This document shows positions 3,561 through 44,776 of a DNA stretch of 64,000 nucleotides, piece after piece. The DNA comes from Pelagibius sp. GTDB taxonomy: Bacteria; Pseudomonadota; Alphaproteobacteria; Kiloniellales; Kiloniellaceae. Location: assembly GCF_028281305.1 (NCBI RefSeq), contig NZ_JANQKD010000013.1, positions 1 through 64,000 on the forward strand, in the 5' to 3' direction. The notes under the pieces are model-generated. The model made no database searches, was not told the origin of the DNA, and saw only the letters and a list, made by a program, of their open reading frames with translations. Numbering within the stretch: the first letter of the stretch is position 1; every line of letters begins with the position of its first letter. The position numbers were made by a program, and so were the translations under genes.

Positions 3561-4952
3561 CTAGGCCACCGCCGCCAGGCCCTCGGCGGCAACCCAGGCT
3601 TCGGTTTCCGAAAGCGCGGTCCCGAAGCCCTCCAGCAAGCGGTCGATCTCCGCTTCGGTGATGACCATCGGCGGGCAGACCGCGATGGTATCGCCAAGGT
3701 TGCGGAAGAGGACACCCTGGGCCTGGGCACGGGCAGCGAAGTAGGCCCCGACCTTGCCCGGCGGGTCGAAGGGGGTCTTGGCGGCCTTGTCGGCGACCAG
3801 TTCGGCGGCGGCGATCAGGCCGATGCCGCGGACCTCGCCGACGATGGGGCTGTCCTGGAAGCGGCGGAGGCCGTCCTGCAACCGCGGCGCCATGGCCTGG
3901 ACATGCTCGACGATCTGCCGCTCCTCGTAGATTTTCAGCGTTTCCAGGGCGACGGCGGCGGCAACGGGATGGGCGCCATAGGTGTAGCCATGGCCGAACG
4001 ACCCGAGCTTCGCCGAGCTGTCGGCGATGGCCTGGTAGATAGGGTCGGAAATCAGCACCGCCGAGATCGGGACATAGGCGCTGCTGAGCTGCTTGGCGCA
4101 GGTCATGATGTCCGGCTCCAGCCCGAAGGTCTCGCTGCCGAACATCCGCCCGGTGCGCCCGAAGCCGCAGATGACCTCGTCGGCAATCAACAGCACGTCG
4201 TACTTCTTCAGCACCGCCTGGATCTTGGCCCAGTAGCCTTCCGGCGGCACGATCACCCCGCCGGCCCCCTGCAGGGGCTCGCCGATGAAGGCGGCGATCG
4301 TCTCCGGGCCCTCCTGCAGAATCAGGTTCTCCAGCTCGCGGGCCAGCCGGTCGGTGAAGGCCTCTTCGTTCTCGCCGTCTTCGGCGAAGCGGTAGTGGTG
4401 CGGCGCCCCGGTGTGGATGATGTTGGCGATCGGCAGGTCGAAGCCGGCCTGCACGTAGGGCATGGCCGTCAGGCTGGCAGCGGCGATGGTGACCCCGTGG
4501 TAGCCTTTGACCCGGCTGATGATCTTCTTCTTCTGCGGCCGGCCGAGCGCGTTGTTGTAGTACCAGACCATCTTGATGGCGCTGTCGTTGGCCTCCGAGC
4601 CGGAGTTGGCAAAGAACACCTTGGTCAACTGCGGCGGCGTCATCCCGACCAGCTTCTCGGCCAGATCGACGGCCGGGCCGGCGGTCTTCTGGGCAAAGGA
4701 GTGGTAGTAGGGCAGCCTGGCCAGTTGCTCGCTGGCCGCTTTCACCAGGCGCTCCTCGCTGAAGCCCAATCCGGTGCACCAGAGGCCGGCCATGGCCTCC
4801 AGGTAGCGGTTGCCCTGGCTGTCGATGACATAGACGCCCTCACCGCGGTCGATAATCAGCGAGCCTTCGCTCTCGTTCTTGCGGGCGTTGGTATAGGGGT
4901 GAAGGTGGTAGGCGATGTCCCGGTCGACGGCCGAGTTCGAGCGATCGCTCAT
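3561..4952 (-). CDS. Class III PLP-dependent aminotransferase (omega-amino acid type)
   Basis: 463 residues from the ATG at 4952, which has a clear GGAGA ribosome site; a longer reading to 4988 lacks one. The protein moves an amino group, usually from an omega-amino acid or amine, to pyruvate or another keto acid. Visible are the cofactor-phosphate motif FFANSGSEANDSA (113-125), the LLIADEVICGFGRTGRM segment with the PLP-contacting Asp258 (254-270), and the Schiff-base Lys287 in IMTCAKQLSSAY. Length fits the family. Substrate cannot be set from sequence; the polyamine-type binding protein nearby makes a putrescine or GABA-like amine plausible, but that is only context. It ends about 280 nt before the hemA start. 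Confidence 0.88.
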   Translation of the reverse strand: MSDRSNSAVDRDIAYHLHPYTNARKNESEGSLIIDRGEGVYVIDSQGNRYLEAMAGLWCTGLGFSEERLVKAASEQLARLPYYHSFAQKTAGPAVDLAEKLVGMTPPQLTKVFFANSGSEANDSAIKMVWYYNNALGRPQKKKIISRVKGYHGVTIAAASLTAMPYVQAGFDLPIANIIHTGAPHHYRFAEDGENEEAFTDRLARELENLILQEGPETIAAFIGEPLQGAGGVIVPPEGYWAKIQAVLKKYDVLLIADEVICGFGRTGRMFGSETFGLEPDIMTCAKQLSSAYVPISAVLISDPIYQAIADSSAKLGSFGHGYTYGAHPVAAAVALETLKIYEERQIVEHVQAMAPRLQDGLRRFQDSPIVGEVRGIGLIAAAELVADKAAKTPFDPPGKVGAYFAARAQAQGVLFRNLGDTIAVCPPMVITEAEIDRLLEGFGTALSETEAWVAAEGLAAVA

Positions 4953-5120
4953 GCTGGTCTCCAGAAAAGGGCTCTCTCCAAAGGGCAACGGTCCCGCCAG
5001 GGCCGAGGCCTCCGGCCCATGGAAGGGACCGGGGGCAGCCTACTCTCCCGCATGGCCGGCTGCCAATTCTTTGATGTCCTTTACTCTTCGGGCCTCTCGC
5101 AAAGGCTTATCGTGCGCGCC

Positions 5121-5714
5121 TCAGAGCGTCGCAGCGGTTCTCTCGACCCGCTTCAGAAAGCGTTCCCGCCGTTCGGCGTCGATCTTTTCCGTGTTGTAGC
5201 AGGTCAGCTTGCGAAAGCGGGCCTGCGGTGCGCAGGCCCCGACGATCCCGCGCCGCAGTTGCCGGTCGACGGGATGGCCCATGAAGAGCGCGCTCACCCA
5301 GCGGGCGGAGCCGAGCGTGGAGACGGCCAGGACCGCCTGCAGCGACGTCAGGCGCGGACGGATTTGTCCGTAGCCCGGGGTGTGGTCGAAAGCGACGCCG
5401 GGCTGGAACACGCGGTCGAAGTAGCCCTTCAGAATGGCCGGCATGTTGAACCACCACTGGGGAAACACCAGCACCACCTTGTCGGCGGCCTGCAGGCGCC
5501 GGATCTGGTCTGCCACCGCGGAATGATCCGGTTGGTCTGTGTAGTACCTGAGGCGTTCGCTCCGGCTGAGGTGCGGATCGAAGTCCTCGCGGTAGAGATC
5601 GAGAACGTCGACGGCATCGCCCCTGGCCGTGAGGGCCGCGGCGGCGCGTGCGGCGATGGCGGCGCAGAAGCTGTCCTCCAGCGGATGCGCCAGGATGAGA
5701 AGCACCTGGGCCAT
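5121..5714 (-). CDS. Flavodoxin-fold NAD(P)H oxidoreductase (NQO/KefF-like)
   Basis: 197 residues. The N-terminal VLLILAHPLEDSFCAAIAA is the FMN/FAD-phosphate loop of the NQO1/MdaB/KefF family. FPQWWFNMPAILKGYFDRVFQPGVAF (about 85-110) is the family signature around the flavin ring. Such enzymes transfer two electrons from NAD(P)H to quinones or nitro-compounds in the cytosol, or regulate K+ efflux. It starts 17 nt after the ABC exporter stop on the same strand, so the two are probably co-transcribed. No KefC-like transporter is present, so a quinone or electrophile reductase role is more likely. Confidence 0.87.
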   Translation of the reverse strand: MAQVLLILAHPLEDSFCAAIAARAAAALTARGDAVDVLDLYREDFDPHLSRSERLRYYTDQPDHSAVADQIRRLQAADKVVLVFPQWWFNMPAILKGYFDRVFQPGVAFDHTPGYGQIRPRLTSLQAVLAVSTLGSARWVSALFMGHPVDRQLRRGIVGACAPQARFRKLTCYNTEKIDAERRERFLKRVERTAATL

Positions 5715-5731: not shown

Positions 5732-7579
5732 TCACGAGGCCTTGCGCTCCGCGTCGAGGCCGAGGAAGCCGCCGGACTGACGTTCCCAGAGCTGGGCGTA
5801 GAGCCCGCCGCGGCGCAGCAGCTCGGCATGGCTGCCCTGCTCGACGATGTGGCCCTGGTCCATGACCACCAGCCGGTCGAGGGAGGCGATGGTGGAGAGA
5901 CGGTGGGCGATGGCGATCACGGTCTTGCCGGCCATCAGGTTCTTGAGCTGGCTCTGGATTGCCGCCTCGACCTCGGAGTCGAGCGCCGAGGTCGCTTCGT
6001 CCAGCACCAGGATCGGCGCGTCTTTCAGGATCACCCGGGCGATGGCCACGCGCTGGCGTTGCCCGCCCGACAGCTTGACGCCGCGTTCGCCGACATGGGC
6101 CTCGAAGCCGCGGCGCCCCTGCATGTCCTCCAGGTCGGGGATGAAGGGCAGGGCCTCGGCGAGGTCGGCGGCGCGGCGCATTTCGGCCTCGCTGGCCTCC
6201 GGCCGGCCGTAGAGAATGTTGTCGCGGATGGAGCGGTGCAGCAGTGCGGTATCCTGGGTCACCATGGCGATCTGGCTGCGCAGGCTGTGCTGCGAAACCT
6301 CCGCGATATCCTGGCCGTCGATGAGGATGCGTCCGCCCTCCAGGTCGTAGAAGCGCAGCAGCAGGTTGACCAGGGTCGACTTGCCGGCCCCGGACCGGCC
6401 GACGATGCCGACTTTCTCGCCCGCCCGCACGGTCAGGCTGAGATCCTCGATCACGCCGTCTTCCTTGCCGTAGTGGAAGCGGATTCCGTCGAAGCGTACC
6501 TCGCCGTCGTTGACGGTCAGGGTCTTGGCGGCCGGCGGGTCGGCGACCGAGTAGGCCTGGGAGATGGTTTCGATGCCGTTCTGCACGGTACCGATGTTCT
6601 CGAACAGGCTGGTGACGGTGCGCAGAATCCAGCCGGACATTTGGGTCAGGCGGATGATCAGGCTGATGGCCACGGCGATGGCACCGGTGGAGATGCTTTC
6701 CTGAATCCAAAGCGCGATGGCCAGCCCCGACACCAGGACGATGAGGGCCGTGTTCAGCACCGTCAGGGTGATGGTCATGCCGACGACCGAGCGCATCAGC
6801 CGCCGGAGCGCCAGGGTGTGGCGGTCCACGACTTCGGCGACGAAGGCATCCTCGCGCTCGCTGTCGGCGAAGAGCTTGACCGACTGGATGTTCGTGTAGC
6901 TGTCGACGATGCGCCCGGTGAGGGCGGAGTTCGCTTCGGAGAGGGCCGAGGACTTGCGCCGCACCGGCGGCACCATGAAGTAGATCACCGCTGCATAAGC
7001 CAGGGTCCAGGCCAGCACCGGCAGCAGCAGGCGCCAGTCGATCCCGGCAAAGAGGACCAGAGTGCCGATCAGATAAATCAGCAGGAACCAGACGCCGTCG
7101 ATGACGTTGATCACCGCTTCCCGCACGGCGTGGCCTGTCTGCAACACCTTTTGCGCGATCCGCCCGGCGAAATCGTTCTGGAAATAGGCCAGGCTCTGCC
7201 GCAGCACGTAGCGGTGGTTCAACCAGCGCACCCGGTTGGTGAGGCCGGGCGCCAGGCTGAGGTTGATGAGGCCGCGCGAGACCAGGGTGGCAATGGGGCG
7301 CAGAAGCACCGCCACCACCGCCATTCCGGCGAGACCCCAGCCGTAATCCTGCAGAAAGGTGCTCGGGTTGCCGGTGGTCAGCCAGTCGACCAGCATGCCG
7401 AGAAAGTAGTAGAGCGCGATCTCGGCCGCCGCCGCGACCCCGGATATCAGCAGGGTGGCCAGCAGCAGCCCTTTGACCGGTGACAGGAAGTGAATGAAGA
7501 AGTCACGGGTCAAGGTCGGCGGACGCTCGATCGCCGCCGGTGCGAGAGGGTTGAAGAGGCGCTCAAAAAAAGCATACAT
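5732..7579 (-). CDS. ABC exporter, fused permease-ATPase
   Basis: 615 residues, a half-size exporter of the MsbA/Atm1 type that works as a homodimer in the inner membrane. The first ~330 residues hold about six membrane spans (for example LLLATLLISGVAAAAEIALYY and LLIYLIGTLVLFAG). The ATPase part has Walker A GRSGAGKST, Q-loop VTQDTALLH, signature LSGGQRQR, Walker B ILVLDEATS and the switch His in AIAHRLST, so it looks active. The start at 7579 has AAGGAGA about 13 nt upstream. Substrate unknown; pairing with a flavodoxin-fold reductase suggests detoxification. It is divergent from the DUF2927 lipoprotein gene. Confidence 0.92.
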   Translation of the reverse strand: MYAFFERLFNPLAPAAIERPPTLTRDFFIHFLSPVKGLLLATLLISGVAAAAEIALYYFLGMLVDWLTTGNPSTFLQDYGWGLAGMAVVAVLLRPIATLVSRGLINLSLAPGLTNRVRWLNHRYVLRQSLAYFQNDFAGRIAQKVLQTGHAVREAVINVIDGVWFLLIYLIGTLVLFAGIDWRLLLPVLAWTLAYAAVIYFMVPPVRRKSSALSEANSALTGRIVDSYTNIQSVKLFADSEREDAFVAEVVDRHTLALRRLMRSVVGMTITLTVLNTALIVLVSGLAIALWIQESISTGAIAVAISLIIRLTQMSGWILRTVTSLFENIGTVQNGIETISQAYSVADPPAAKTLTVNDGEVRFDGIRFHYGKEDGVIEDLSLTVRAGEKVGIVGRSGAGKSTLVNLLLRFYDLEGGRILIDGQDIAEVSQHSLRSQIAMVTQDTALLHRSIRDNILYGRPEASEAEMRRAADLAEALPFIPDLEDMQGRRGFEAHVGERGVKLSGGQRQRVAIARVILKDAPILVLDEATSALDSEVEAAIQSQLKNLMAGKTVIAIAHRLSTIASLDRLVVMDQGHIVEQGSHAELLRRGGLYAQLWERQSGGFLGLDAERKAS

Positions 7580-33972: not shown

Positions 33973-34306
33973 GGGTACACCTCTGCTTGAGAAGGCCGCT
34001 CTCACGAGAGGGCCCGGCAAGGGAGAGGCAAGGATAGGGGCCGCTCCGGCGCCCGGACATTGACCTGCGTCAAGCAGGCAGCGCAGGGGGGGCGCCGCAG
34101 ACGATGGCTCGTTTATGGCTCAGCGGTTCGATTACGATGGCTCGACTTTTCCCTTCGCCCGGCTCGGTGCGAAGTGATAGATTGCCGGCGCGGCGCGGTG
34201 GCTGCAGCGGCGTCCGTGGGTCATGAGGTTGCAGAAACGGCCTCTGACATCCGAACAAGGCAGCTGACACAAGTGCAGCTGAGACAAACGCAGTACGACT
34301 GGGGGA
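33973..34306. other. Divergent intergenic region with FNR-type box
   Basis: 334 nt between the hemerythrin gene and the PHB depolymerase gene. Apart from the FNR-type box at 34060-34073 I see no gene or strong structure. Confidence 0.5.
34060..34073. promoter_or_regulatory. FNR/DNR-type anaerobox
   Basis: TTGAC-CTGC-GTCAA is a perfect palindrome with the right N4 spacing for Crp/Fnr-family regulators (consensus TTGAY-N4-RTCAA). It lies 88 nt upstream of the hemerythrin start and about 235 nt from the depolymerase start. Confidence 0.7.
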
Positions 34307-35641
34307 GTGCCCGAAAGCGGCACGGCAACACTGGGGGCCACTGAAACCTTGCTTTACCATGCCTATGAGTTGACTCACGCTGCGGTGAGACCGCTGCGCA
34401 TGCAATCCGACGCGCTGCGCTATGCCTGCCGAAGCGCCTTCAGCCCTGTTGCCTACACACCCGTCGGCAAGGCGGTGGCTGCGGCCTGTGAGGTCTTCGA
34501 GAACGTGACACGGCGTTACGGCAAGCCGGAGTGGGGAATCGATGCTGTGGACATCGATGGCGAGGCGGTCGCCGTTGAGCCCCGCCTTGTTTACGGCAAG
34601 CTGTTCTGCGACCTGCTGCACTTCAAGCGGGACAAGCCGGCTGTTGCCGGACGCAAGGATCCCAAGGTGCTGATCGTGGCGCCGCTTTCCGGCCACTACG
34701 CCACCCTGCTGCGGGGCACAGTGAAAGCGATGATCCCGGAGCACGAGGTCTTCGTGACCGACTGGCGCGACGCCCGCTTCATGCCGCTTGCGTATGGGCG
34801 CTTCGATCTCGACGACTTCATCGACTATGTGATCGACTTCATCCGCTTCATCGGCCCGGACACCCATGTCATTGCCGTCTGCCAGCCTTCGGTGCCCGTG
34901 CTGGCAGCGGCCGCCGTGATGGCCGAGCAACGCGATCCGCTGCAACCCGCGTCGATGACATTGATCGGCGGACCGATCGATACCCGCCGCAACCCGACGG
35001 CGGTGAACGAACTTGCGGCTTCGCGGCCGCTGTCATGGTTCGAGCACACGGTCATCTCGCCGGTGCCGTTTCCCTGTCCCGGCGCCATGCGGCGCGTCTA
35101 TCCCGGCTTCGTTCAGCTGACGGGCTTCATGACCATGAACATGGAACGCCATCTGGATGCCCACGCCGACCTGTTCCGTCACCTGATCGAAGGGGACTGC
35201 GACTCGGTCGATCAGCACCAGCGCTTCTACGAGGAATACCTCTCGGTCATGGATCTGACGGCGGAGTTCTACCTGCAGACCATCGACACGGTGTTCCAGA
35301 AGCACGCGCTGCCGAACGGCACCATGTACCATCGCGGAAAGCCGGTCGACTGCCGCGCCATTCGCAACACGGCGCTGATGACCATCGAAGGGGAGCTGGA
35401 CGACATCTGTGGCCTCGGCCAGACCGAAGCCGCGCACGATCTTTGTCCGAACATCCCGGCTGCGGACCATCACCACTACGTGCAAGAGGGTGTCGGGCAC
35501 TACGGTGTCTTCAATGGACGGCGCTGGCGCGACGAGATTCAGCCGCGGCTGAAGAAGATGATTCGGGCAACCGGGCGTCGGCGCCGCGCCTCTTCTCGGC
35601 TTTCGGGCCGGCTTTCGGGCCGGCTTTCGGGAACGGCCTGA
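34307..35641 (+). CDS. phaZ: Intracellular polyhydroxyalkanoate (PHB) depolymerase
   Basis: 444 residues from GTG 34307; a TTG at 34349 with GGGGG upstream is a credible alternative, since the family usually begins near LLYHAYELTHAA. The enzyme mobilises stored PHB granules. The nucleophile is a cysteine, Cys192 in VIAVCQPSVPVLAA, as in PhaZ of Cupriavidus rather than a Ser lipase box. The acid lies in TIEGELDDICG and the base in EGVGHYGVFNGRRW. The gene ends in a 12-nt array that adds RLSG repeats to the C-terminus, absent from typical relatives. Confidence 0.93.
   Translation: MPESGTATLGATETLLYHAYELTHAAVRPLRMQSDALRYACRSAFSPVAYTPVGKAVAAACEVFENVTRRYGKPEWGIDAVDIDGEAVAVEPRLVYGKLFCDLLHFKRDKPAVAGRKDPKVLIVAPLSGHYATLLRGTVKAMIPEHEVFVTDWRDARFMPLAYGRFDLDDFIDYVIDFIRFIGPDTHVIAVCQPSVPVLAAAAVMAEQRDPLQPASMTLIGGPIDTRRNPTAVNELAASRPLSWFEHTVISPVPFPCPGAMRRVYPGFVQLTGFMTMNMERHLDAHADLFRHLIEGDCDSVDQHQRFYEEYLSVMDLTAEFYLQTIDTVFQKHALPNGTMYHRGKPVDCRAIRNTALMTIEGELDDICGLGQTEAAHDLCPNIPAADHHHYVQEGVGHYGVFNGRRWRDEIQPRLKKMIRATGRRRRASSRLSGRLSGRLSGTA
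35597..35632 (+). repeat. 12-nt tandem array at the depolymerase C-terminus
   Basis: Three copies of CGGCTTTCGGGC (last with a final A), in frame, encode repeated RLSG just before the stop. Confidence 0.9.
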
Positions 35642-35715
35642 GCGCCGGGCTCCCGGACCACCGCGTGGCTGTTTCAGAAGCGAACCGCGTTTAAGGCTGC
35701 GGGTGGGCCGCCGCG

Positions 35716-36372
35716 TCAGGCGCTGCGCTTGTGCAAGCGCCGGTCCTGTTCTCTCTTCGGCGGTTGCGACTCGAGCGCGGCGCTGCTGCGCTGATAGCGC
35801 CAGACCGAAGCCGGGGGAATGTTATCCATCACCCAACTGGCACGGCGGCCCCGAAGGCCGAGGGCGGCGGCAATGCGCTTGGAGACCGGTGAGGCCGGGC
35901 CGTAGGTGAACTGAACAAAGACGCCGTGGTCGTCGAGCACGGCCATGGATTCGGCGACGATCTGGCGGCAGATCCGGTCAGGGATCGACAACAGCGGCAG
36001 GCTCGAGACCACCGCCTTGACCTTGCCGATGCCGGCGTTCTGAAGCAGCCGGCGCAGGTTCGCCGCATCGCCCTGCAGCACCCGCACCTGGGGGAAGCGT
36101 TCGGCGATCACCCGGTGGAACGCTTTGTCGCGTTCGATCACGATGATGTCCCTGTGGGGGATACCGGCTTCCAGCAGGGCAGCGGTGATGTTGCCGGTGC
36201 CGCCGCCCAACTCGATGATCGCGCCCTCGGCGTCGTGGTCAATCTCTGCGGCCATGGCGGTGGCGAGGCTGCGTCCGCTCGGCACCACGGCTCCGACAGC
36301 CTTCGGGTTGCGCAGCCAGCGCCCCAGAAAGCGGATATTGCGCTTCAGGTTCTTCGGTCGGCCCAATTCCAT
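35716..36372 (-). CDS. SAM-dependent methyltransferase, PmtA-like (phospholipid N-methylation)
   Basis: 218 residues. FLGRWLRNPKAVGAVVPSGRSLATAMA (12-38, quoted in parts) is the N-terminal amphipathic and substrate region seen in PmtA of Rhizobiaceae. The SAM loop is IIELGGGTGNITAALLEAG (52-70), and VVSSLPLLSIP matches the next motif. PmtA makes phosphatidylcholine by methylating phosphatidylethanolamine at the membrane surface; rRNA-dimethylase-like relatives share the fold, so the substrate is inferred. The start codon at 36372 lies inside a 14-nt tandem array that supplies two further ATGs upstream in the other frames. The ATG at 36372 opens the full-length frame. Confidence 0.82.
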   Translation of the reverse strand: MELGRPKNLKRNIRFLGRWLRNPKAVGAVVPSGRSLATAMAAEIDHDAEGAIIELGGGTGNITAALLEAGIPHRDIIVIERDKAFHRVIAERFPQVRVLQGDAANLRRLLQNAGIGKVKAVVSSLPLLSIPDRICRQIVAESMAVLDDHGVFVQFTYGPASPVSKRIAAALGLRGRRASWVMDNIPPASVWRYQRSSAALESQPPKREQDRRLHKRSA

Positions 36373-36413
36373 CGGCCCAGTTCCATTAACCCAGTTCCAT
36401 CAACCCAGTTTCG
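36359..36413 (-). repeat. 14-nt array repeating a start codon in three frames
   Basis: Four units, period 14: CGGCCCAATTCCAT (36359-36372), CGGCCCAGTTCCAT, TAACCCAGTTCCAT and a partial CAACCCAGTTTCG. Read on the minus strand, each full unit ends in ATG. Because 14 is not a multiple of three, the ATGs at 36400, 36386 and 36372 fall in three frames. Confidence 0.9.
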
Positions 36414-36729
36414 CCGGCATGGTCCGGTTTGATCCGTCCGCCCCCGGCGGTTGCTCGCCTTGCACAGGCCCCTGCGGCGGTCCCCTGACAACCGGGCCGG
36501 CAGCTCCGGACAAGCAATACCAAGCGCTTGCGAATCCACACAGCGCCTAAGGATATGCTGTATATGGACCCGGGTCGCTCGTCCACAAGTGATCTTCCTG
36601 TGGTGCGGCGCGATGGCAAGGGAAAGTCAGCAACGACGGGAGCTCCGAAAAAGGCCATTCAGGCCCTTCTCGGAGCAACCTCTTTACCGTCATTTCTTCC
36701 CCCGGTTTTGTCAGCCCAAAGGGCGAAGA
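36373..36729. other. Intergenic region between PmtA-like and small proline-rich gene
   Basis: 357 nt. The left end is the start-codon array. A hairpin at 36642-36676 (GCTCCGA/TCGGAGC with an inner GGCC pair) lies 54 nt past the stop of the small gene and may be its terminator. No other gene is supported. Confidence 0.5.
36642..36676 (-). terminator. Possible terminator of the small gene
   Basis: GCTCCGA (36642-36648) pairs with TCGGAGC (36670-36676); GGCC-to-GGCC pairing inside strengthens the stem. There is no U-tract on the minus strand, so factor-independent stopping is uncertain. Confidence 0.4.
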
Positions 36730-36915
36730 TCACGCTTCAAAGTCGATCTTCTGTCCCCGGTCGGGATCCGGATAGGGAAACCGCGGGGGCGGGTCCTTTG
36801 GGGCCGACTCCACCGGCCGGGCCGAGTCCGACTTGGCGGCGGGCGTGACTTCAGGCGCCACCGACTGCGTCGATCCCGTGTTGGCCAGCGGCACGGGGCT
36901 TGGTTGGATCTGCAT
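36730..36915 (-). CDS. Small proline-rich protein of unknown function
   Basis: 61 residues. The start at 36915 has a near-perfect AGGAGGT at proper spacing, the strongest ribosome site in the region, so the gene is real. The protein is Pro/Ser/Ala-rich and disordered, with a more ordered tail PPPRFPYPDPDRGQKIDFEA. No signal peptide, span or cysteine. I do not know the family. It is transcribed away from the AT-rich island and the ParA gene, which may share its promoter region. Confidence 0.7.
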   Translation of the reverse strand: MQIQPSPVPLANTGSTQSVAPEVTPAAKSDSARPVESAPKDPPPRFPYPDPDRGQKIDFEA

Positions 36916-37418
36916 TTGAACCTCCTAAAGTTCAGGCAGCCGCTCTCCCATTACTATATAATACATCGAGGCGCTTAAGTAAATATTTAAATAAAAAGCA
37001 AGTAATGCTAAATTCAAGTAAAATTTTATTCAAATTTTCTCTCGATGTGTATTCGTCTGCCAGTAGATTTACTTGAATTCAAGGTTGATTTTGAGATGAC
37101 AACGCACGCTTTACGCGCTAAACATGCCTGGAGGGAGGGCGCAGCCGGCTGTGTCCCACAGCGGCTGCCGCAGGGCGGCGAAGGCCTGCATTCTCTGGCC
37201 AAGGGCTTTGCCGCGATGCACTTTTTTTGCCCTGCGCAATATGTCCAGCTTCCAATCAACCGCTACATATAGTATAGGTTAACAAAATATTAACTGTCAC
37301 TGGTAGGTGCGGGGAGCTTACGCTTTCTTGCAGCGCTGAGGTAAGGGCTGCTGACGCCGCGTCGGGCCGCGGTTGGTCGGCATTGAGGGGCTCTTGTCAA
37401 TTGGGGGAGCGGGCGGTT
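36916..37418. other. AT-rich island with nested inverted repeats
   Basis: 503 nt, the most AT-rich stretch in the window (36950-37080 and 37230-37310), between the small gene and the ParA gene. Nested dyads: TACTATAT (36952-36959) with ATATAGTA (37267-37274); ACATCGAG (36963-36970) with CTCGATGT (37041-37048); AATTCAAGTAAA (37011-37022) with TTTACTTGAATT (37068-37079); GTTAA (37278-37282) with TTAAC (37290-37294). No coding sequence is supported. It could be a divergent promoter or a binding site for a partition-like protein. Confidence 0.6.
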
Positions 37419-38126
37419 GTGAAGGTTGTTGTTGTTGCATCCCAAAAGGGTGGATCCGGAAAAACGACGATTGCCGGGCACCTGGCAGTTCAGGCTGAAC
37501 TCAGCGGCCGCGGGCCGGTCGGGCTGATCGATGTCGATCCGCAGGGCAGCTTGGCGGACTGGTGGAACGAGCGGGCGGCGCCCAATCCCTTCTTCATCCA
37601 GACCGCGGTTCCGCGCTTGGCGCAGGACGTCAAGGAACTGGCTGCGCACGGCATGGAATTGCTGGTGATCGACACGCCACCGGCGCTGACCGGCACGATT
37701 GCCGATGTCATCCGCGTTGCCGACCTGGTGGTCATTCCCACGCGTCCGAGCCCGCACGACCTGCGCTCGATCGGGGCGACCATGGAACTGGTGGAACATC
37801 TGGGGAAGCCGCTGGTCTTTGTGGTCAACGGTGCGGCGCCAAGAGCCAAGATCACAGCGGAAGCGGTTTCTCTGCTGTCCCAGCATGGGCCTCTGGCTCC
37901 TGCGATCATTCATCAGAGAGTCGATTTCGCCGCCTCCATGATCGATGGCCGCACGGTGATGGAATTGCCCGGCGAGTCCCGCTCGGCGCGCGAGATTGCG
38001 GCGCTTTGGGATTATCTCGATGTCCGGCTGTCCGGAGCGAGGAGGCCCCGGAGGGTGCCCGCCGTTCCGCCGGCCCTGACCGGCTCCGAGCAGACCAATC
38101 AGATCAAGGTTGAGGGCAGAGCCTGA
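37419..38126 (+). CDS. ParA/MinD-family P-loop ATPase (orphan)
   Basis: 235 residues from a GTG at 37419, with GGGGGAG upstream; it begins MKVVVVASQKGGSGKTT. The deviant Walker A KGGSGKTT (10-17) has the signature first lysine, and LIDVDPQGSLADWW (43-56) is Walker A'. LLVIDTPPALTG is the Walker B region and VIPTRPSPHDLRSIGATM the switch. ParA ATPases bind DNA as ATP dimers and position cargo. No parB or replication gene is adjacent, so plasmid partition is unlikely. Its stop is one base before the start of the giant SPOR protein, so they are co-translated and probably act together. Short for a chromosomal ParA, like the cargo-positioning orphans (McdA, PpfA). Confidence 0.9.
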   Translation: MKVVVVASQKGGSGKTTIAGHLAVQAELSGRGPVGLIDVDPQGSLADWWNERAAPNPFFIQTAVPRLAQDVKELAAHGMELLVIDTPPALTGTIADVIRVADLVVIPTRPSPHDLRSIGATMELVEHLGKPLVFVVNGAAPRAKITAEAVSLLSQHGPLAPAIIHQRVDFAASMIDGRTVMELPGESRSAREIAALWDYLDVRLSGARRPRRVPAVPPALTGSEQTNQIKVEGRA

Positions 38127-38127
38127 G

Positions 38128-40809
38128 ATGACTCAAGCCAAGGCGGCTTCCCTGACCAGTGCGCTTTTCGCACGCAAAGGCGCTGCGTCCCCGGCCAGCC
38201 TCGTCATTGCCGAGCTTCAGACGGAAGACGGGCCCGAAGGCGCGCTGCCGGTCCAAAAGGGCAAGGGCAGGGGCCAGGACTCCTCCGAGCGGCGGCAGGC
38301 AAAGCTGCCGGAGATCGAACAGGAACTGCCGCTGCTGGCCTTTGTCGACGCCCAGAGCAAGAAAGCCGAAATCGGGAAAGATGGTGCCCTCCCGGCCGAT
38401 GGCCCTGGCGCCGTCGATCAGCCCCGGGACGTGGATCAGCCCCGGGAGGTGGATCAGCCCCGGGAGGTGGATCAGCCCAGAGACGACGAAAGCCACGGCA
38501 CGCCGCTGGCGCGCAACTCTGGTACCGCCGGCGACAGCGCCGGTGAAGCGGACCTTGAGCCGAGTCCGGCTGCGAGCCTTTTGGACCGCAGCCCCCTCGG
38601 GTTGCGAGACGATGCCGAGGAGGCTCCGGGGTCTTCGGAGAACGTGGCACAAGAAGACGCGGCAGATGCGGCAGAGGCAAATGCGGCAGAGGCAGATGCG
38701 GCACAGCAGGCACCCGATCCTTCTGACGTGCTGGGCCCGGAAGTGCGGGCCATCTCCGAAGTGCAGGCCATCGAAGCGGAGATCGTGGAAACCGGTGCAG
38801 CCTCGTCCGGGCCTGTTGTCGACGACCCGCTGGTCGCCGATCCGGCACCGGCGGCGACAGTGCCCTCGACTGCCGATGTCTTCGAACCGGAAGTTATCGA
38901 CGCCGAGATCGTCGAACCCGCAGATGCCGGTGATACGCCTGCCGCGGTGACGCAGAGCGCGGGCCAGCGCGGCGAAGCGTCTGTCGGGAGTGGCGAAGCG
39001 GCCCGCAGCGGTGAGGCGGAGGTTGCCGCCGGCCCGCCAGACGATCCGCAAGAGGCGGTGTCCGCCACGCCCGCATCCGCGCCCGAAGAGACTGCGGCAG
39101 AGGCGGCAGTGTCTGGCACGGCAGCCTCGACCGAGACCGGCGATGCGGAGGCCAGTGATCAGGCAGCCAGTGATCAGGCAGCCAGCGATCCGGCGGCCAG
39201 TGATCCAACAGCCGGTGGTTCGCGCACCAACGATTCGGGTGGGCCGACGCCGGATGCGGAGAAGAGACAGGCACCAGGCGATCCGCTGCTCTCTGACCAA
39301 GAACAGGCCGCTGCGGGGACTGCTGGAGACAAAGCAGACGGCGAGGATCCCGAAGAGGCGCTTAAGAGCGAGCCTTCCGTCATCGCCAAGCCGGAAGAGC
39401 GCGATCCACCGCGCACCTCCTCCGCGGTCAATCTTCGCCTGGCGCAAAAGATCGACGGGCCCAAAGAGGGCAGTCGACCGACTGCTCCTATGACCGCTCC
39501 CGCCACCGCTTCGGCTTCCACCGCTTCGGCTTCCACCGGGCCGCTGCGCGCCGGGCCCGCTGCTGCAGCGCGCGACCGTCTTGGCTCAGGGCACAGCACA
39601 GGGCACAGCACAGGGCGCGACCGCAGCCCCTGGCGCATCGCCGCTGTGATCGCTGTCGGCGCGGCGCTCGGCTTCACGGCCTATACGCTCTGGCCGCGGT
39701 CGTCAGACCCGCAATCCACAGAAGCTCAATCTACAGAAGCTCAATCCACAGGGACCCAGTCTGCGGAGACCCGGTCCCCAGACGGGTCGTCCCCGGGCGC
39801 ACCGCAGGCCGCGGCGGCGGGCCAGGGCTCCGACGCTGCTGTGCCGGCCTCTGCAACGGAACCCGAAGGCAGCGTTGAAAGCGCTGCGCAGGCTGCGGAC
39901 GGGCCGCAGGATGAAGACGCTTTGCCGCCCGAAGACGCAACGGCGGCCGGCACGGACGCTGACCTCGCGGCCGCCGGGACGACCGCGGCGGCCGCGGAGC
40001 CTTCCTTCGACATCATCCGGATCGAGCCGAACGGCCAGTCGATCATTGCCGGGCGTGCGGAACCGCTGAGCGAATGGATTCTGCTGAACAACGGCGAGCC
40101 CATCGGCACCGTTCGGGCCGATATCAATGGTGAGTGGGTGCTGTTGCCGGATGCTTCGCTGATCCCCGGCGCCAACGACTTCAGCCTTGTCAGGAAGGCA
40201 GAGCGCGGCAAGGTCGAGATCCCTGCGACAATCGGCCCCTCCTCCGAGGCGCCTGGAAGCGCCCCAGGGAGCGCCCCAGGGAGCGTGCCTGCGAGCGCGC
40301 CGGACGCGGCGGCGCAGGCTGCGGCGACGGTGTTGCCGGAGGACGCGCTTTCGGGAGAGGAGTTTTCGGCGGAGGGCCTGTCCGCCGGGGTTGTTCTGCC
40401 CCGTCTGAAACCCCGCCAGGAGCCTGCGGCAGAGGAACAGTCTTCGGTGATCAATCTGGCGCCCGGCGGCGGCTATCAGGTCCAGTTCGCATCGGTCCGC
40501 CAGAGTGACGCGGCGGAACGGGAACGCGAAAGGCTGATCGACGTCTTTCCGTCCCTCCTCGGCGGGCTCGGCCTTCGGGTGCAGGAGGCCACCATTGACG
40601 GTGCCGGGGTCTTCTATCGCCTGCGTACGGGGCCGATCGCTGATCTCGGCAAGGCTCGCGAACTCTGCCGCCGGCTGGAGGCAGAGGGGCAGGGCTGTCT
40701 TGTTGTGGCCCGCGCCGTAAATCCGCCGCTGACGGGCACTGATGCCGACTTGCTCGACCCGCCGGCGTCGGTTCTGACGCCGAACCAGCAGGCGGAGATA
40801 CCGGACTGA
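38128..40809 (+). CDS. Giant single-pass SPOR-domain protein with repeat-rich acidic N-terminus
   Basis: 893 residues, starting one base after the ParA-family stop. A short basic-hydrophobic N-terminus (AASLTSALFARKGAASPAS) resembles ATPase-activating peptides of ParA partners. Then comes ~470 residues of acidic, Ala/Pro/Ser/Glu-rich, likely disordered sequence with in-frame repeats (DQPREV, ASDQA). One membrane span WRIAAVIAVGAALGFTAYTLW lies near 502-522. Beyond it is a periplasmic linker with more repeats (QSTEA), an Ig-like domain (about 626-695, FDIIRIEPNG to ANDFSLVRKAE) and a C-terminal SPOR domain (about 781-867, YQVQFASVRQSDAAER). SPOR domains bind septal denuded peptidoglycan. The topology is N-in, C-out. 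I infer septum targeting through SPOR with ParA coupling on the cytosolic side. Confidence 0.88.
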   Translation: MTQAKAASLTSALFARKGAASPASLVIAELQTEDGPEGALPVQKGKGRGQDSSERRQAKLPEIEQELPLLAFVDAQSKKAEIGKDGALPADGPGAVDQPRDVDQPREVDQPREVDQPRDDESHGTPLARNSGTAGDSAGEADLEPSPAASLLDRSPLGLRDDAEEAPGSSENVAQEDAADAAEANAAEADAAQQAPDPSDVLGPEVRAISEVQAIEAEIVETGAASSGPVVDDPLVADPAPAATVPSTADVFEPEVIDAEIVEPADAGDTPAAVTQSAGQRGEASVGSGEAARSGEAEVAAGPPDDPQEAVSATPASAPEETAAEAAVSGTAASTETGDAEASDQAASDQAASDPAASDPTAGGSRTNDSGGPTPDAEKRQAPGDPLLSDQEQAAAGTAGDKADGEDPEEALKSEPSVIAKPEERDPPRTSSAVNLRLAQKIDGPKEGSRPTAPMTAPATASASTASASTGPLRAGPAAAARDRLGSGHSTGHSTGRDRSPWRIAAVIAVGAALGFTAYTLWPRSSDPQSTEAQSTEAQSTGTQSAETRSPDGSSPGAPQAAAAGQGSDAAVPASATEPEGSVESAAQAADGPQDEDALPPEDATAAGTDADLAAAGTTAAAAEPSFDIIRIEPNGQSIIAGRAEPLSEWILLNNGEPIGTVRADINGEWVLLPDASLIPGANDFSLVRKAERGKVEIPATIGPSSEAPGSAPGSAPGSVPASAPDAAAQAAATVLPEDALSGEEFSAEGLSAGVVLPRLKPRQEPAAEEQSSVINLAPGGGYQVQFASVRQSDAAERERERLIDVFPSLLGGLGLRVQEATIDGAGVFYRLRTGPIADLGKARELCRRLEAEGQGCLVVARAVNPPLTGTDADLLDPPASVLTPNQQAEIPD
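38416..38487 (+). repeat. In-frame 18-nt tandem array
   Basis: Four 18-nt units GATCAGCCCCGGGACGTG, with G/C swaps, encode DQPRDV/DQPREV in the SPOR protein's cytosolic part. The last unit is degraded. Confidence 0.85.
39151..39210 (+). repeat. In-frame 15-nt tandem array
   Basis: Four 15-nt units of GCCAGTGATCAGGCA type encode ASDQA/ASDPA. The first two are identical and later units have drifted. Confidence 0.85.
39712..39771 (+). repeat. In-frame 15-nt tandem array in the periplasmic linker
   Basis: Four 15-nt units starting CAATCCACAGAAGCT encode QSTEA and variants just after the membrane span. Units decay toward the right edge. Confidence 0.85.
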
Positions 40810-40854
40810 GGTGCGGGCCTTGCGCCGGTGCGCTGCTGCCGGGCGATGCTGTCG

Positions 40855-41709
40855 TCAGGCGGCGCCGGCGTCGTAAAGGCCGATCGCTTCCAAAACGTCC
40901 TTGATCTCCCGGCGGGCGGCCGCGTGGCTGCTGGTCTCGCCTTCCTCAGGCAGATCGAGTGCGGTCAGTCCGCTGAGGAAGAGCTCGCGGAAGACGACCC
41001 GCTCGCTGACGCCCGGAGCGACGCGAAAGCCGATGCGCTTCGAGAGGACCGACAGCAGGTTGCTGATCTCCCGCATGTTGCGGGCTTCGATATGGGCCAG
41101 CCGGTTGCGCAGCACCACCCAGTCGATCGGCGGCCGTCCGGTGACGACGCGCTGATTGTTCTGCTCCCAGACCAATTGGCTGTACACGCTCGGCGCTTCC
41201 ACCAGCCGGTCCTCGCGGTTGATGCGCGCCAGAACTTCGATGTCCAACAGGCTGTCGTTCAGGGGTGTCACGAGGGTGTCGGCGAAGCGGTGCCCCAGCC
41301 GGCAGAGCGAAGAGTCGCTGCCCGGTGTGTCGATGACCACGAAGTCGCAGCCCTGCGCCTCGGCCAGCGCTGCCTGCAGGCGCTGCTCCTCATCCTCCGT
41401 GGCCTGCTGACGATCGGCGGCGGCGGAGCGTTCGACCACCGCATGGCGCGGCAGTTCCAGCGTCCGACCGCTTCGCTCGGCGTAGTCTTCACGGTTCTTG
41501 AAAAAAGCGGACAGCGTTGCCTGGCGGGAATCCAGATCGAGGGTCGCGACCTTGAAACCCAGTTTCATCAAGGCGACGCTCAGATGAATGGCTGTGGTCG
41601 ACTTGCCGGTGCCGCCTTTCTCGCTGCCGACCACGACAACGTAGGGACCATTGTCGTCCGGCTGCTCCGCAGCCCAGTCCCCCTCTGACTCGACGATCGC
41701 CCCCTGCAT
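40855..41709 (-). CDS. mipZ: Division-plane positioning ATPase MipZ
   Basis: 284 residues from the ATG at 41709. MipZ inhibits FtsZ assembly near ParB-bound poles so that division occurs at midcell in alphaproteobacteria. VVVVGSEKGGTGKSTTAIHL (Walker A KGGTGKST), VATLDLDSRQATLSAFFKNR, FVVIDTPGSDSSLCRLGHRFADTLVTPLNDSLLDIEVL (read in parts) and DWVVLRNRLAHIEARN match Caulobacter MipZ closely. So does the C-terminal GFRVAPGVSERVVFRELF and GLTALDLPEEG. Extra residues 1-20 are low-complexity acidic. It converges on the SPOR gene with about 45 nt between stops, so both division-related genes share a locus but not a transcript. Confidence 0.93.
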   Translation of the reverse strand: MQGAIVESEGDWAAEQPDDNGPYVVVVGSEKGGTGKSTTAIHLSVALMKLGFKVATLDLDSRQATLSAFFKNREDYAERSGRTLELPRHAVVERSAAADRQQATEDEEQRLQAALAEAQGCDFVVIDTPGSDSSLCRLGHRFADTLVTPLNDSLLDIEVLARINREDRLVEAPSVYSQLVWEQNNQRVVTGRPPIDWVVLRNRLAHIEARNMREISNLLSVLSKRIGFRVAPGVSERVVFRELFLSGLTALDLPEEGETSSHAAARREIKDVLEAIGLYDAGAA

Positions 41710-41893
41710 GGTCACGACGCTAGCACAGCGCGAACGCGAGTTCACGGTGTTGACGCGACGGGAGAGATGAAAAGCTGAGGCGCCGCCTCGCACCCTGGCA
41801 TTCCGGCCAGGTCCGGCACCGCAGCCGGTCGATCTTGCGCTCCCCCTGCAAAACAGCTCTCCCCAGAATCGACCTCCCCAGAACAGCCCCTTT

Positions 41894-42463
41894 TTAGAAC
41901 AAGACCGTCCAGCTCTCCGTATCGCGGGCTGCAGCAGCCTGGGCGACAGTTGAGTGGCCGCCAGGGGATACCATTCTCAGGTGTTCCGCCTCTTTTTCGT
42001 CGTCGAGCTCTTGGGGCTGGTCGGCCCGCTCCGGCTCAAGACCGGGGCCTTTCTCCGGCTGACCCACGCTCTCGGCGACGTTGCCCTTGAGGGCGGCCAA
42101 GCGGCGGGCGAGGACCTCGGTCTTTGCCCAGGCCAGGAACTCTTTGCCTTCCTTGTTCTTGTGGACCGCCGCCCATTGCTGGCGCTTGTCCGAGCGCATG
42201 GCAAAGGCGATGTTCTCGCCCTCCAGGCCGCAGTCGAGGGACTGCGTATAGGGCGGCACCTTGCCGCCCCAGATCTCTGAAATGACGTTCCAGGAGAAGC
42301 CTTCTTTGACCAGCAGTTCCATCATCACCTGGTCGAACTCGCCGCGCGCCAGTTCCAGCGCATAGCTGATCATGCAGTCCAGTTCCTGGCTGCCTGTGGA
42401 AGCGCTTTCAAGCTCGGAGATGACGCGCGTGATGATGTCGCCTTCCGGCGTGTTCCGATCCAT
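41894..42463 (-). CDS. Conserved protein of unknown function
   Basis: 189 residues. I do not recognise a named family. ELDCMISYALELARGEFDQ near the N-terminus and PYTQSLDCGLEGENIAFAMRS with EFLAWAKTEVLARRLAALKGN suggest a helical DNA/phage-adjacent fold (pattern like the Ea22/DUF small proteins with YTxSLDAAL), but this is weak. The C-terminal 60 residues are acidic and disordered. No signal or span. It follows MipZ on the same strand at a distance and precedes pyrE, with no obvious operon. Confidence 0.6.
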   Translation of the reverse strand: MDRNTPEGDIITRVISELESASTGSQELDCMISYALELARGEFDQVMMELLVKEGFSWNVISEIWGGKVPPYTQSLDCGLEGENIAFAMRSDKRQQWAAVHKNKEGKEFLAWAKTEVLARRLAALKGNVAESVGQPEKGPGLEPERADQPQELDDEKEAEHLRMVSPGGHSTVAQAAAARDTESWTVLF

Positions 42464-42639
42464 GCTCCCCGTCCCCAGACCCTCGGTTGAAGTGTACTGA
42501 TTTTGCGATGGAAGAGAAGCGCCCCTACCTCGGAATCACAAAAAATAGATTTGCTTATGGTTAATTTCGCGCCGGAAAACTACCTCCGGTGTCCGGGCTG
42601 TGTAGATCCTGCCGCCTAAGGGTTCAGCCGCGGCTGCGG

Positions 42640-43329
42640 CTAGCCGTTCGACTTGGCCTGCGCGTCCGCTGTCCAGCTGTTCGGATCCTGCAGGAAGTGC
42701 CGCACCGTATCGACCTCCGCGCTTTTGAGGTAGCCGGTCTGCTCGGCGACGGCCAGCGCGTCCCACCAGGTTGCAAGGGCGTGCAGCCTCACACCGCGCT
42801 CCTGCAGCGCGGCGACGCCCTCAGGGAAGATGCCGTAGTGGAAGACTACGAAGGTATGGGCGACCTCGGCGCCGGCCTTGCGCAGGGCGTCGACGAAGGT
42901 GAGTTTGGAGCCGCCGTCGGTGGCCAGATCCTCAACCAGAAGTACCCGGCTGCCTTCCGGCAGATGCCCCTCGATCTGGGCGTTGCGGCCGAAGCCTTTC
43001 GGTTGTTTGCGGACGTATACCATCGGCAGGCCCAGGCGCTCGGCGATCCAGGCGGCAAAGGGGATGCCGGCGGTTTCGCCGCCGGCGATGCAGTCGATCG
43101 ACTCGTAGCCGGCTTCGCGCTTGATGAGCTCGCAGCCGAAGTCCATGAGCTGCGCGCGTGCGCGCGGGAAGGAGATGATCTTGCGGCAGTCGACATAGAC
43201 CGGGCTGACGCGGCCGGAGGTGAAGGTGAAGGGCTCCTGCGGGCGAAAGAGGATCGCTTCGATTTCCAGCAGGATCCGGGCCGTGACCGCCGCCATGGCC
43301 TGTGGGTCTGATGTGCTTGCCGCGTGCAT
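42640..43329 (-). CDS. pyrE: Orotate phosphoribosyltransferase
   Basis: 229 residues from the ATG at 43329 (GAGGACGG upstream); a longer reading to 43524 adds a non-homologous leader. PyrE makes orotidine-5-phosphate from orotate and PRPP in pyrimidine synthesis. The PRPP-binding motif is [17 protein letters not shown], and the flexible-loop lysines are in [33 protein letters not shown] is the N-terminal signature. The C-terminal helix and [13 protein letters not shown]-like tail give normal length. Confidence 0.94.
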
Positions 43330-43444
43330 TGTCCGTCCTCGAGGTTCGGCGCCGGGCGGAGGTTTGCTTGGCTCGGCGCCAGCTTTTGCTGGGCCGGTTG
43401 TAGCCCGCCGGGCCGAGTCGATCAAACTTCCGCCCGGCTGTCGA

Positions 43445-44776
43445 CTATTCGGTCCCGCGGGAAAGCGCTGCCGAGGGACGGGACGCCAGCGCGATCTTGG
43501 CCAGGAAGTAGCCGATGAAAGCAATGATCGCAGCGGAGGTCATGACGCTGACCATGGGGATGGCGCTCTCGCTCTGCAGGTGCCCGACCACAAGGGTGGC
43601 AACGCCGCCGACCATCATCTGCAGAAAGCCCAGCAGGCCGGAGGCGGTTCCGGCCAGGTCCGGACGGACCGAGATCGCCGAAGCGGTGGCATTGGGCAGG
43701 CTGAGGCCATTGGCCAGCCCTATGAACATGACCGGGCCGAACAGCATGAGGGGCGTCATCTCGCCCGAGAGCGCGAGGCCGGTCATCAGGGCCATGCCCA
43801 CGAGCGCGAGTGCGCTGCCGGCCAGGGTCATGCGCTCCGGTCCGACTTTCGTCGACAGCCGGCCGGCCAGGTAGTTGCCGGTCATGTAGCTGGCCGCATT
43901 CAGCATGAAGTAGAGCCCGTACTCGCTGGGCGGGCGGCCCATCACCTCGATCATCATGTAGGGGGCGCCGGCCAGGAAGGCGAAGAACACCGCCGTTGTG
44001 AAGGACACGTTGATCGCGTAGCCGGTGAAGGCCGTGTCCTTGAGCAGCGTCCCGAACCCCCGGACCATGCTGACCGGCCCGGCGACGACGTCGCGGTCGA
44101 AGTGGGTCTCCACGAGCAGGAACCAGGCGAAGGCCAGAACCACCGCGCCGACCAGCAGGACCAAGACGAAAGAGGCACGCCAGCCGAAGAGGTCGTCGGC
44201 AAATCCGCCCAGCAGGGGTGCGACCATCGGGGCCACCACCATCGCCATGGTGATGTAACCGATCATGCTGGCTGATTCGCTGCGATCGTGGGTGTCGCGC
44301 ACGATGGCGCGGCCCAGCACCAGGCCGGCACAGCCGCCCACGGCCTGGATCACCCGGCCGACGATCAGCATCGCGATGCTGTCGGCCAAGGCGCAGAGCA
44401 GGGTGCCCAGAAGAAACAGCAGGACGCCCCAAAGCAGCACCGGCCGGCGCCCGAAGCGGTCGGAGAGCGGGCCGAGGAAGAGCTGCGAGATGGCGACGCC
44501 GAAAAGGTAGAGGGTCAGTGTGAGTTGGATGGTGCCATAATCGGTGTTGAAGACCGCCTTCATGCCCGGCATCGAAGGGATGAAGATGTTCAGGGCCAGC
44601 GGGCCGAGCGCGGTGACGGCGATAAGGATGCCCAGCGAAGGCCGGCGCACCGCGCCCTTCCGCAGGGCTTCCGCCGCGACGGGGCGCGGCATCGCCTGGG
44701 GCGGCGGCAGCGGCGCGGCCCCGGCCGCCGCCTCGGGCTGCCGGTGCTCGTCCCGTTCGTCGCTCGCCTCGCGCAT
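43445..44776 (-). CDS. MFS multidrug exporter, Bcr/CflA type
   Basis: 443 residues from the ATG at 44776, with GGGGAG just upstream. After a charged leader come twelve spans. The Bcr/CflA motif [16 protein letters not shown] is motif A, and [21 protein letters not shown] is the family signature in the fourth-fifth spans. Proton-driven export of drugs such as bicyclomycin, or of cysteine, at the inner membrane. It ends about 115 nt before the pyrE start on the same strand. Confidence 0.92.

Follow-up and report, generated by a model that had tools for sequence, protein, structure and literature searches.

Why should a ParA-family ATPase be encoded directly upstream of a membrane protein predicted to bind the septal cell wall? 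This question was raised by a two-gene locus of Pelagibius sp. in a 64,000-nucleotide stretch of DNA (contig NZ_JANQKD010000013.1, positions 1 to 64,000), hereafter the window. The locus encodes an ATPase of 235 residues (37419..38126, + strand) and an 893-residue protein with a C-terminal SPOR domain (38128..40809, +), residues 1-30 of which (38128..38217, +) form a conserved peptide, termed here the tag. From sequence and by analogy to studied ParA systems, we propose with moderate confidence that the pair is a partition module resembling ParF/ParG but serving a new cargo, in which a ParA-activating tail would be carried by a membrane protein that binds the septal wall, and nucleoid-bound ParA and the septum would act on each other.

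The ParA ATPase and its SPOR-domain partner

The deviant Walker A motif of the ATPase (QKGGSGKTT) was intact, with K10 and K15 invariant across 28 aligned sequences. The protein had the features of a type Ib ParA, namely the signature lysine in this motif, the absence of an N-terminal helix-turn-helix (HTH) and a length of 235 residues, within the class range of about 200-250. Pfam matches to ParA-type domains were obtained. The score with the NCBIfam model NF041546 was 165.6 bits, below the curated cut-off of 180, which was also missed by a plasmid homolog (L211, 170 bits) and by a Sphingomonas homolog (L131, 163.1 bits). In a sequence search against solved structures, TP228 ParF and TP228 ParA alone matched at E<=1e-10. 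The predicted model (mean predicted local distance difference test, pLDDT, 80.8; low confidence after residue 205) had the TP228 ParA-AMPPNP-ParB structure as its best fold match, and the top seven chains were all TP228 ParA/ParF, with template modelling (TM) scores of 0.83-0.88 by target length. ParF Pro109, which a structural study reports to be adjacent to Gly16 in the tail of bound ParB (PMC5393062), aligned with P112 of the window ParA, which was invariant in the alignment. By its intact ATPase motifs and its predicted fold, the protein belongs to the ParF type. Two other assignments, a MipZ paralog and MinD, were considered and rejected: the Pfam MipZ match covered just positions 2-53 of 262 (35 bits), the fold was nearest to ParF, and no amphipathic helix was apparent by eye in the low-confidence tail past residue 205.

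The sequence-only reading had described a ParA/MinD ATPase stopping one base before an 893-residue protein, translationally coupled to it. The coordinates were borne out by the open reading frame (ORF) check: parA starts at GTG 37419 and stops at TGA 38124-38126, and a single base separates this stop from the ATG of the SPOR gene at 38128. An alternative parA start at TTG 37383 would add 12 residues; many orthologs use ATG where the window has GTG 37419. Coupling remains plausible in that the genes are adjacent or overlapping, but the gap was not constant, ranging from -4 to +55 nucleotides among SPOR-type loci. The closest named relative, among the best 80 of 557 candidates in the scan, was Pelagibius litoralis DSM 21314, with a ParA 89% identical.

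The predicted architecture of the partner (N-terminal peptide, acidic part, one span, immunoglobulin (Ig)-like domain, terminal SPOR domain) likewise held when Pfam, hydropathy, charge and the structural model were applied. Residues 31-500 (38218..39627, +) form an acidic, low-complexity, poorly conserved cytosolic part with a net charge of -57 (K+R-D-E). The most hydrophobic 19-residue segment starts at residue 504, in a predicted membrane span of approximately residues 504-525 (39637..39702, +) that was also apparent in the ortholog alignment. The Ig-like periplasmic domain (approximately residues 624-705; 39997..40242, +) was a beta domain in the model and matched SiiE Ig domains weakly (E 0.02); Pfam Big_13 was found in three of 67 partner proteins. 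This domain was present in 27 SPOR partners examined, five of them duplicates, and was not found in six more distant SPOR partners (L072, L081, L085, L086, L143 and L147). Residues 780-860 (40465..40707, +) matched Pfam SPOR (PF05036; E 1.3e-9, 38.7 bits, cut-off 21), and among PDB entries they were closest to the SPOR domain of RlpA in complex with denuded glycan (E 2.7e-3; TM score by target length, 0.75). SPOR was the only Pfam match in the window partner; no ribbon-helix-helix (RHH) or other DNA-binding domain was detected.

A conserved peptide behind ParA

Six Pelagibius orthologs (the window, L037, L038 and L040-L042) were compared to locate conserved parts of the partner. Identity was 83% in the tag, 35% in residues 31-90 and 19% in residues 91-500, then 57% in the span, 84% in the Ig-like domain and 70% in the SPOR domain. 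The tag, whose core LFARKGAASP occupies residues 13-22 (38164-38193, +) and whose consensus is LLARKGxAxP, was the sole well-conserved stretch of the cytosolic tail and about as conserved as the folded Ig domain. A tail with a fixed end and drifting length and sequence is as expected for a flexible tether bearing a putative docking peptide.

Besides the window itself, 40 stretches taken from relatives and 80 named loci (the best 80 of the 557 candidates) were examined for the distribution of the tag, giving 121 ParA loci in all; at least six represent the same contig reached by two routes and are kept in the counts. A strict pattern, L[LF]x[RKPSNVDLQ]KGxAxP near the ORF start, written after the sequences had been seen and with controls drawn from the same loci, occurred behind ParA in 107 of 121 loci. 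In the controls it was matched once at 2,531 other ORF ends and five times at 9,059 random positions. A looser pattern was found in 111 loci, and the remaining ten comprised eight variants recognized by eye and two loci without a tagged gene. In an alignment of 67 of the 121 partners, which differ greatly in size and architecture, K17 was invariant and M1, L13, G18, A20 and P22 were conserved at 90% or more. Hardly any other column was conserved, apart from one isolated proline column at 556.

A profile of 35 tag sequences, the window protein included, was run together with a ParA profile over 190 genomes drawn evenly from the class, at least two of which (G000 and G025) had contributed to the tag profile. 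ParA (E<=1e-55) was found in 29 genomes (35 genes) and the tag (E<=1e-3) in 24 (27 sites), all 24 of them among the 29 with ParA; no tag match at E<=1e-3 was found in the 161 of 190 genomes without ParA. Twenty-six of the 27 sites lay 8-325 nucleotides downstream of ParA (E<=1e-55). The exception was a tagged RHH-like gene (L210/L224, G183:C12), which may be a second cargo of a ParA located elsewhere. In the window's own genome, the profile matched the SPOR protein at 9e-13 and the next place at 0.07. The ORF-end and random-position controls, together with the class-wide co-occurrence with ParA, rule out a chance origin of the peptide.

The same association was seen in 58 genomes, the window's own and 57 relatives, seven of the latter placed in its genus. 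Strong ParA matches (E<=1e-55) occurred in 34 genomes. Tag matches (E<=0.01), seen in 32 genomes, and full-length matches to the Ig-SPOR protein (E<=1e-70), seen in 24, were confined to these 34. Many of the 58 genomes supplied the profiles, and since 22 of the 24 Ig-SPOR genomes supplied the Ig-SPOR profile, the telling part is the absence of this protein from the 24 genomes without strong ParA. Other SPOR or Ig matches remained in 58 of 58 genomes (E<=1e-12), including those 24. Thus the gene pair and the N-terminal peptide, whose joint conservation in relatives the sequence-only reading had wished to see checked, are kept together (ParA in 24 of 24 Ig-SPOR genomes, the peptide 83% identical). 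Its description of the ATPase as an orphan hardly fits, because the ParF-like family to which it belongs usually adjoins a tagged partner, often of RHH type. Pairing with a SPOR protein is accordingly one variant within a broader module.

The N-terminal peptide could be a membrane- or DNA-binding or regulatory motif merely travelling with the operon while ParA acts elsewhere, and its short, basic-hydrophobic nature would suit such a motif. This appears very improbable: the peptide is kept on several architectures, almost only beside the present ParA, and an equivalent position and role have been established for the tails of ParB, ParG and PomX. In published systems, a short peptide with many basic or aliphatic residues at the N-terminus of the partner binds a ParA/MinD ATPase and activates it (PMC7993993, PMC12462528). 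These data strongly support the link between tag and ParA, and the peptide behaves as a ParA tag. As judged from sequence, the partner N-terminus carries a peptide common to the partners of this ParA family, plasmid and chromosomal.

Cargo of the tagged module and direction of control

The proteins bearing the tag were of several types. Pfam searches of the 67 partners (E<=0.05) gave SPOR 27, RHH_10 13, HicB 7, Antitox_RHH 7 and ParG 3, where one partner may match several families and the RHH scores examined were mostly below curated cut-offs. Sphingomonadales partners ended in a conserved segment that was RHH-like by eye; one partner of this type run alone (L131) had no Pfam match. By eye, the C-terminus of the tagged partner at L110 and L194 resembled a small HTH/excisionase-type DNA-binding domain, not RHH. 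On three beta-/gammaproteobacterial plasmids, a small tag-bearing gene lay right behind a ParA 54-64% identical to that of the window; one of the three partners was RHH above the Pfam cut-off (E 1.1e-6), and the other two had no convincing Pfam match. A fourth plasmid (Lichenicola) had no tagged gene, the next gene lying on the opposite strand and the following one being untagged. In Kiloniellales-type genomes the tag sits on the SPOR membrane protein.

An unrooted tree of 93 ParAs chosen from the loci was used to examine ancestry; five rows were unlabelled for partner type, and the labels, like the neighbour counts below, rest on a custom SPOR profile built from 17 partner SPOR domains, which match it by construction. 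The SPOR-paired ParAs required two partner-type changes on this tree, and a single clade was not rejected (approximately unbiased test, p-AU 0.454); several origins of the SPOR pairing were dropped on this ground. Since non-SPOR partners were spread over the rest of the tree, plasmids included, a DNA-binding partner was probably ancestral. The tag was probably passed to the SPOR protein once or twice.

In two genomes, ParA was followed by a tagged membrane protein of SPOR type and then by a response regulator that also bears the tag (L072 in G011, regulator at 4888-5646, -; L085 in G058, regulator at 6884-7375, +). The SPOR call was made by sequence similarity in L072 (E 1.3e-7) and by the custom profile alone in L085 (1.3e-9, no Pfam match). 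For both regulators the best solved structure was DivK (E 3.4e-40 and 2.4e-25); G011 also encodes a 148-residue ORF, 53% identical, that could be its ordinary DivK. The tagged DivK-like genes in these two relatives, and the convergent mipZ of the window (see below), fit a cell-cycle role. We tentatively suggest, with less than even confidence, that in alphaproteobacteria a plasmid-type ParA became a portable cell-cycle tagging system, in which one peptide would address SPOR, DivK-like and RHH proteins to the same kind of nucleoid-bound ATPase, and the ParA field would couple DNA, signalling and septal peptidoglycan across the inner membrane.

For the SPOR protein itself we favour mutual control. 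As inferred from other ParA systems, ATP-bound ParA dimers would coat the nucleoid, and the tag would bind the ParA dimer interface and stimulate ATP hydrolysis and release. The SPOR domain would concentrate the protein at the septum, on peptidoglycan that has lost its peptide stems. On the inside, the membrane protein would sense the nucleoid with its long flexible tail; on the outside, it would sense the septal wall. Before constriction, nucleoid ParA would bias the membrane protein toward the nucleoid midpoint or the gap between nucleoids; later, the septum-bound, tag-rich cluster would strip ParA off nearby DNA and form a local ParA sink. Through this early bias and late stripping, septal wall work and nucleoid clearance would be coupled. 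Binding and activation, localisation to nucleoid and septum, the direction of control and the effect on division are all predictions of this model; so too is the positioning, proposed in the sequence-only reading, of a wall or divisome protein by way of nucleoid or membrane.

Control could also run in reverse only, the SPOR domain alone placing the protein, which would then be a membrane-bound, ATPase-activating sink that shapes ParA; the target of ParA would be DNA, for nucleoid clearance or terminus positioning at the septum. SPOR domains localise by themselves in other bacteria, RHH-type DNA-binding partners in many relatives suggest that the habit of the family may be to act on DNA, and a long acidic tail suits flexible reach over tight tethering. 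We nevertheless consider this version unlikely, as the window partner shows no DNA-binding domain and its genome has no other tag site better than the match at E 0.07.

Two features of the gene neighbourhood, a convergent mipZ and nearby SPOR genes, further support the favoured, mutual model. A mipZ gene (40855..41793, -; start codon provisional) converges on the pair in the window (Pfam MipZ E 8.2e-94, model positions 1-260 of 262), and mipZ was convergent downstream in 18 of 22 SPOR-type loci of relatives in which the sequence extended beyond the SPOR gene (L039, L048 and L061 are cut and lie outside the 22). At L086, a gene that is MotA-like by eye (1277-2149 nucleotides after the ParA stop, -) converges on the ParA-SPOR pair at the position of the window's mipZ. 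Of 62 Sphingomonadales-type loci (L089-L155) with mostly RHH-like partners, 59 had a SPOR gene downstream of ParA and 42 had SPOR genes flanking it on either side; with five SPOR matches in the approximately 5 Mb of the window's genome, 59 of 62 is far above such a density. L071 (4144 to 5541 nucleotides after the ParA stop) and L073 (3705 to 5144) each have an ORF in which a MipZ-like ATPase seems to be fused with a CtrA-like receiver. This ORF lies behind the genes for class-2 ParA and for RHH, PAS-like and tetratricopeptide repeat (TPR)-SPOR lipoprotein products; the CtrA and PAS likenesses were judged by eye.

These neighbours also bear on the possibility that a SPOR gene replaced an RHH gene in a DNA-partition or regulatory module, the wall part serving another envelope structure such as a pilus, flagellum or polar site and not division. 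Such a role is suggested by a CpaA/TadV-like prepilin peptidase approximately 6 kb upstream of the class-2 ParA L066 (by eye), by the MotA-like gene near L086, and by TPR-SPOR lipoproteins adjoining RHH-type ParAs. With mipZ next door in most SPOR-type loci of the window's relatives and no pilus gene seen by eye among the ORFs of window positions 34000-44000, it was judged improbable, more so than reverse control.

Upstream of parA, the window is AT-rich at 36975-37092, with short direct and inverted repeats (AATTCAAGTAAA / TTTACTTGAATT). The AT-richness was kept in six of seven Pelagibius relatives examined and the repeat motif was not. Among 11 relatives examined for the motif, L036 alone had it, in a single copy, and a conserved centromere upstream of parA was judged improbable.

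Several observations weigh against the favoured model. SPOR is a minority partner, borne by approximately five of the 26 ParA-adjacent tags in the class sample (the window, L186, L187 and L191 by profile; L226 by eye), and the usual cargo of the tagged module may be DNA; L177 and L193 were left out of the partner set as the ORF picked was ParA itself. Of 22 loci that have non-SPOR partners and are not of the Sphingomonadales type, only 6 had a SPOR gene nearby. In genus g4 of the window's family, represented by four genomes with two such ParAs each (three as fetched; G015 by search), none of the tagged partners was a SPOR protein, and neither a SPOR gene nor mipZ lay near. There, the first ParA had a tagged partner of 174-186 residues, in which any RHH-type match was weak (TacA1, E 0.08, L055), and the second, a paralog, a tagged partner of 178-185 residues of unassigned fold (L068, L069 and L070), for which the member examined, L069, gave no Pfam or NCBIfam match. 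mipZ was missing from the stretch fetched in 4 of the 22 SPOR-type loci (L043, L045, L063 and L072), and of five more distant SPOR-type loci inspected by eye, L143 alone had a MipZ-like gene and L081, L085, L086 and L147 had none. No tagged gene was found in the stretch searched behind ParA in L098 and L101 (2 of the 121 loci), where the gene after ParA is lipoprotein-like and matches SPOR, and no ParA was found in the 5,001 bases fetched around the tagged gene of L210/L224. Nine of the 35 class-sample ParAs lacked a tag match at E<=1e-3. By eye, L216 and L218 end with the contig, L217 has an in-frame stop and L221 an ambiguous ORF; L215, L219 and L220 have RHH-like partners with a degenerate tag, and L222 and L223 small RHH-like partners with no clear tag.

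A last point of this kind concerns FtsN, an essential activator of septal synthases that has a short cytosolic part, a single span and a C-terminal SPOR domain. The window protein shares the single span and the C-terminal SPOR domain, but its cytosolic part is approximately 500 residues long, and a separate FtsN candidate (L001) is present in the genome, so that the SPOR protein need not be a core part of the divisome. The usual gene order is argS-ftsN-nagZ. L001, beside a gene which we take to be NagZ-like, is the better candidate, and identity of the SPOR protein with the genome's FtsN is less likely.

Comparison with known ParA systems

If the proposal is correct, a peptidoglycan-binding protein would be the target of a ParA-type transporter that works across the inner membrane, and nucleoid position and the state of the septal wall would be physically linked in bacteria that have MipZ. 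A putative ParA-activating tail would be found on DNA-binding, membrane and response-regulator proteins, and new ParA cargos could be recognized by a simple rule, LLARKGxAxP behind a ParF-like ParA; the peptide is small and directly testable. The pairing suggests that, in some bacteria, a sorting engine of plasmid type connects DNA with the site of cell division. The principle of ParA-partner activation is already known. No description of the ParA-SPOR pairing was found in the open-access literature searched (titles and abstract starts), nor of a transmembrane, peptidoglycan-binding ParA cargo or of a tag common to RHH-type, SPOR and DivK-like proteins.

MipZ of Caulobacter, whose partner is ParB, resembles the present ATPase as a ParA-like protein that links nucleoid and division, and mipZ is the convergent neighbour in the window, but MipZ is a separate gene and protein family from the window ParA. 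RgsS is an FtsN-like SPOR protein of an alphaproteobacterium for which no ParA partner is described in the available part of the source (PMC7822825). Among ParAs with protein cargo, McdAB, PpfA-TlpT and others position non-DNA cargo through the N-terminus of a partner, a proposed 'luggage tag' (PMC10241942), the cargos of McdAB and PpfA-TlpT being carboxysomes or chemoreceptor clusters; in the main text of that source, the words SPOR, peptidoglycan and ParG are absent.

In Myxococcus xanthus, the ParA/MinD ATPase PomZ likewise affects division by way of a short peptide at the N-terminus of PomX, its partner. Grafted onto an interaction domain, such a peptide can yield an activating protein, as stated in a report on this system (PMC7993993). 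PomX and PomY differ in that they place the FtsZ ring as a large nucleoid complex, whereas the window partner has a SPOR domain and a predicted membrane span.

The closest counterpart is the type Ib TP228 ParF-ParG system, ParF being the closest solved structure to the window ParA by sequence and fold. Both consist of a small, HTH-less ParA followed by a partner with an N-terminal tail, which in TP228 is reported to be disordered and activating (PMC5393062, PMC12462528), and plasmid members of the present family have small tagged partners. The LLARKGxAxP consensus belongs to the present family, and no conserved centromere-like repeat was seen upstream. The window locus thus resembles ParFG in having, as predicted from sequence, a partner with a conserved N-terminal tail beside the ATPase, and departs from it in that this partner is a transmembrane SPOR protein in place of an RHH centromere-binding protein.

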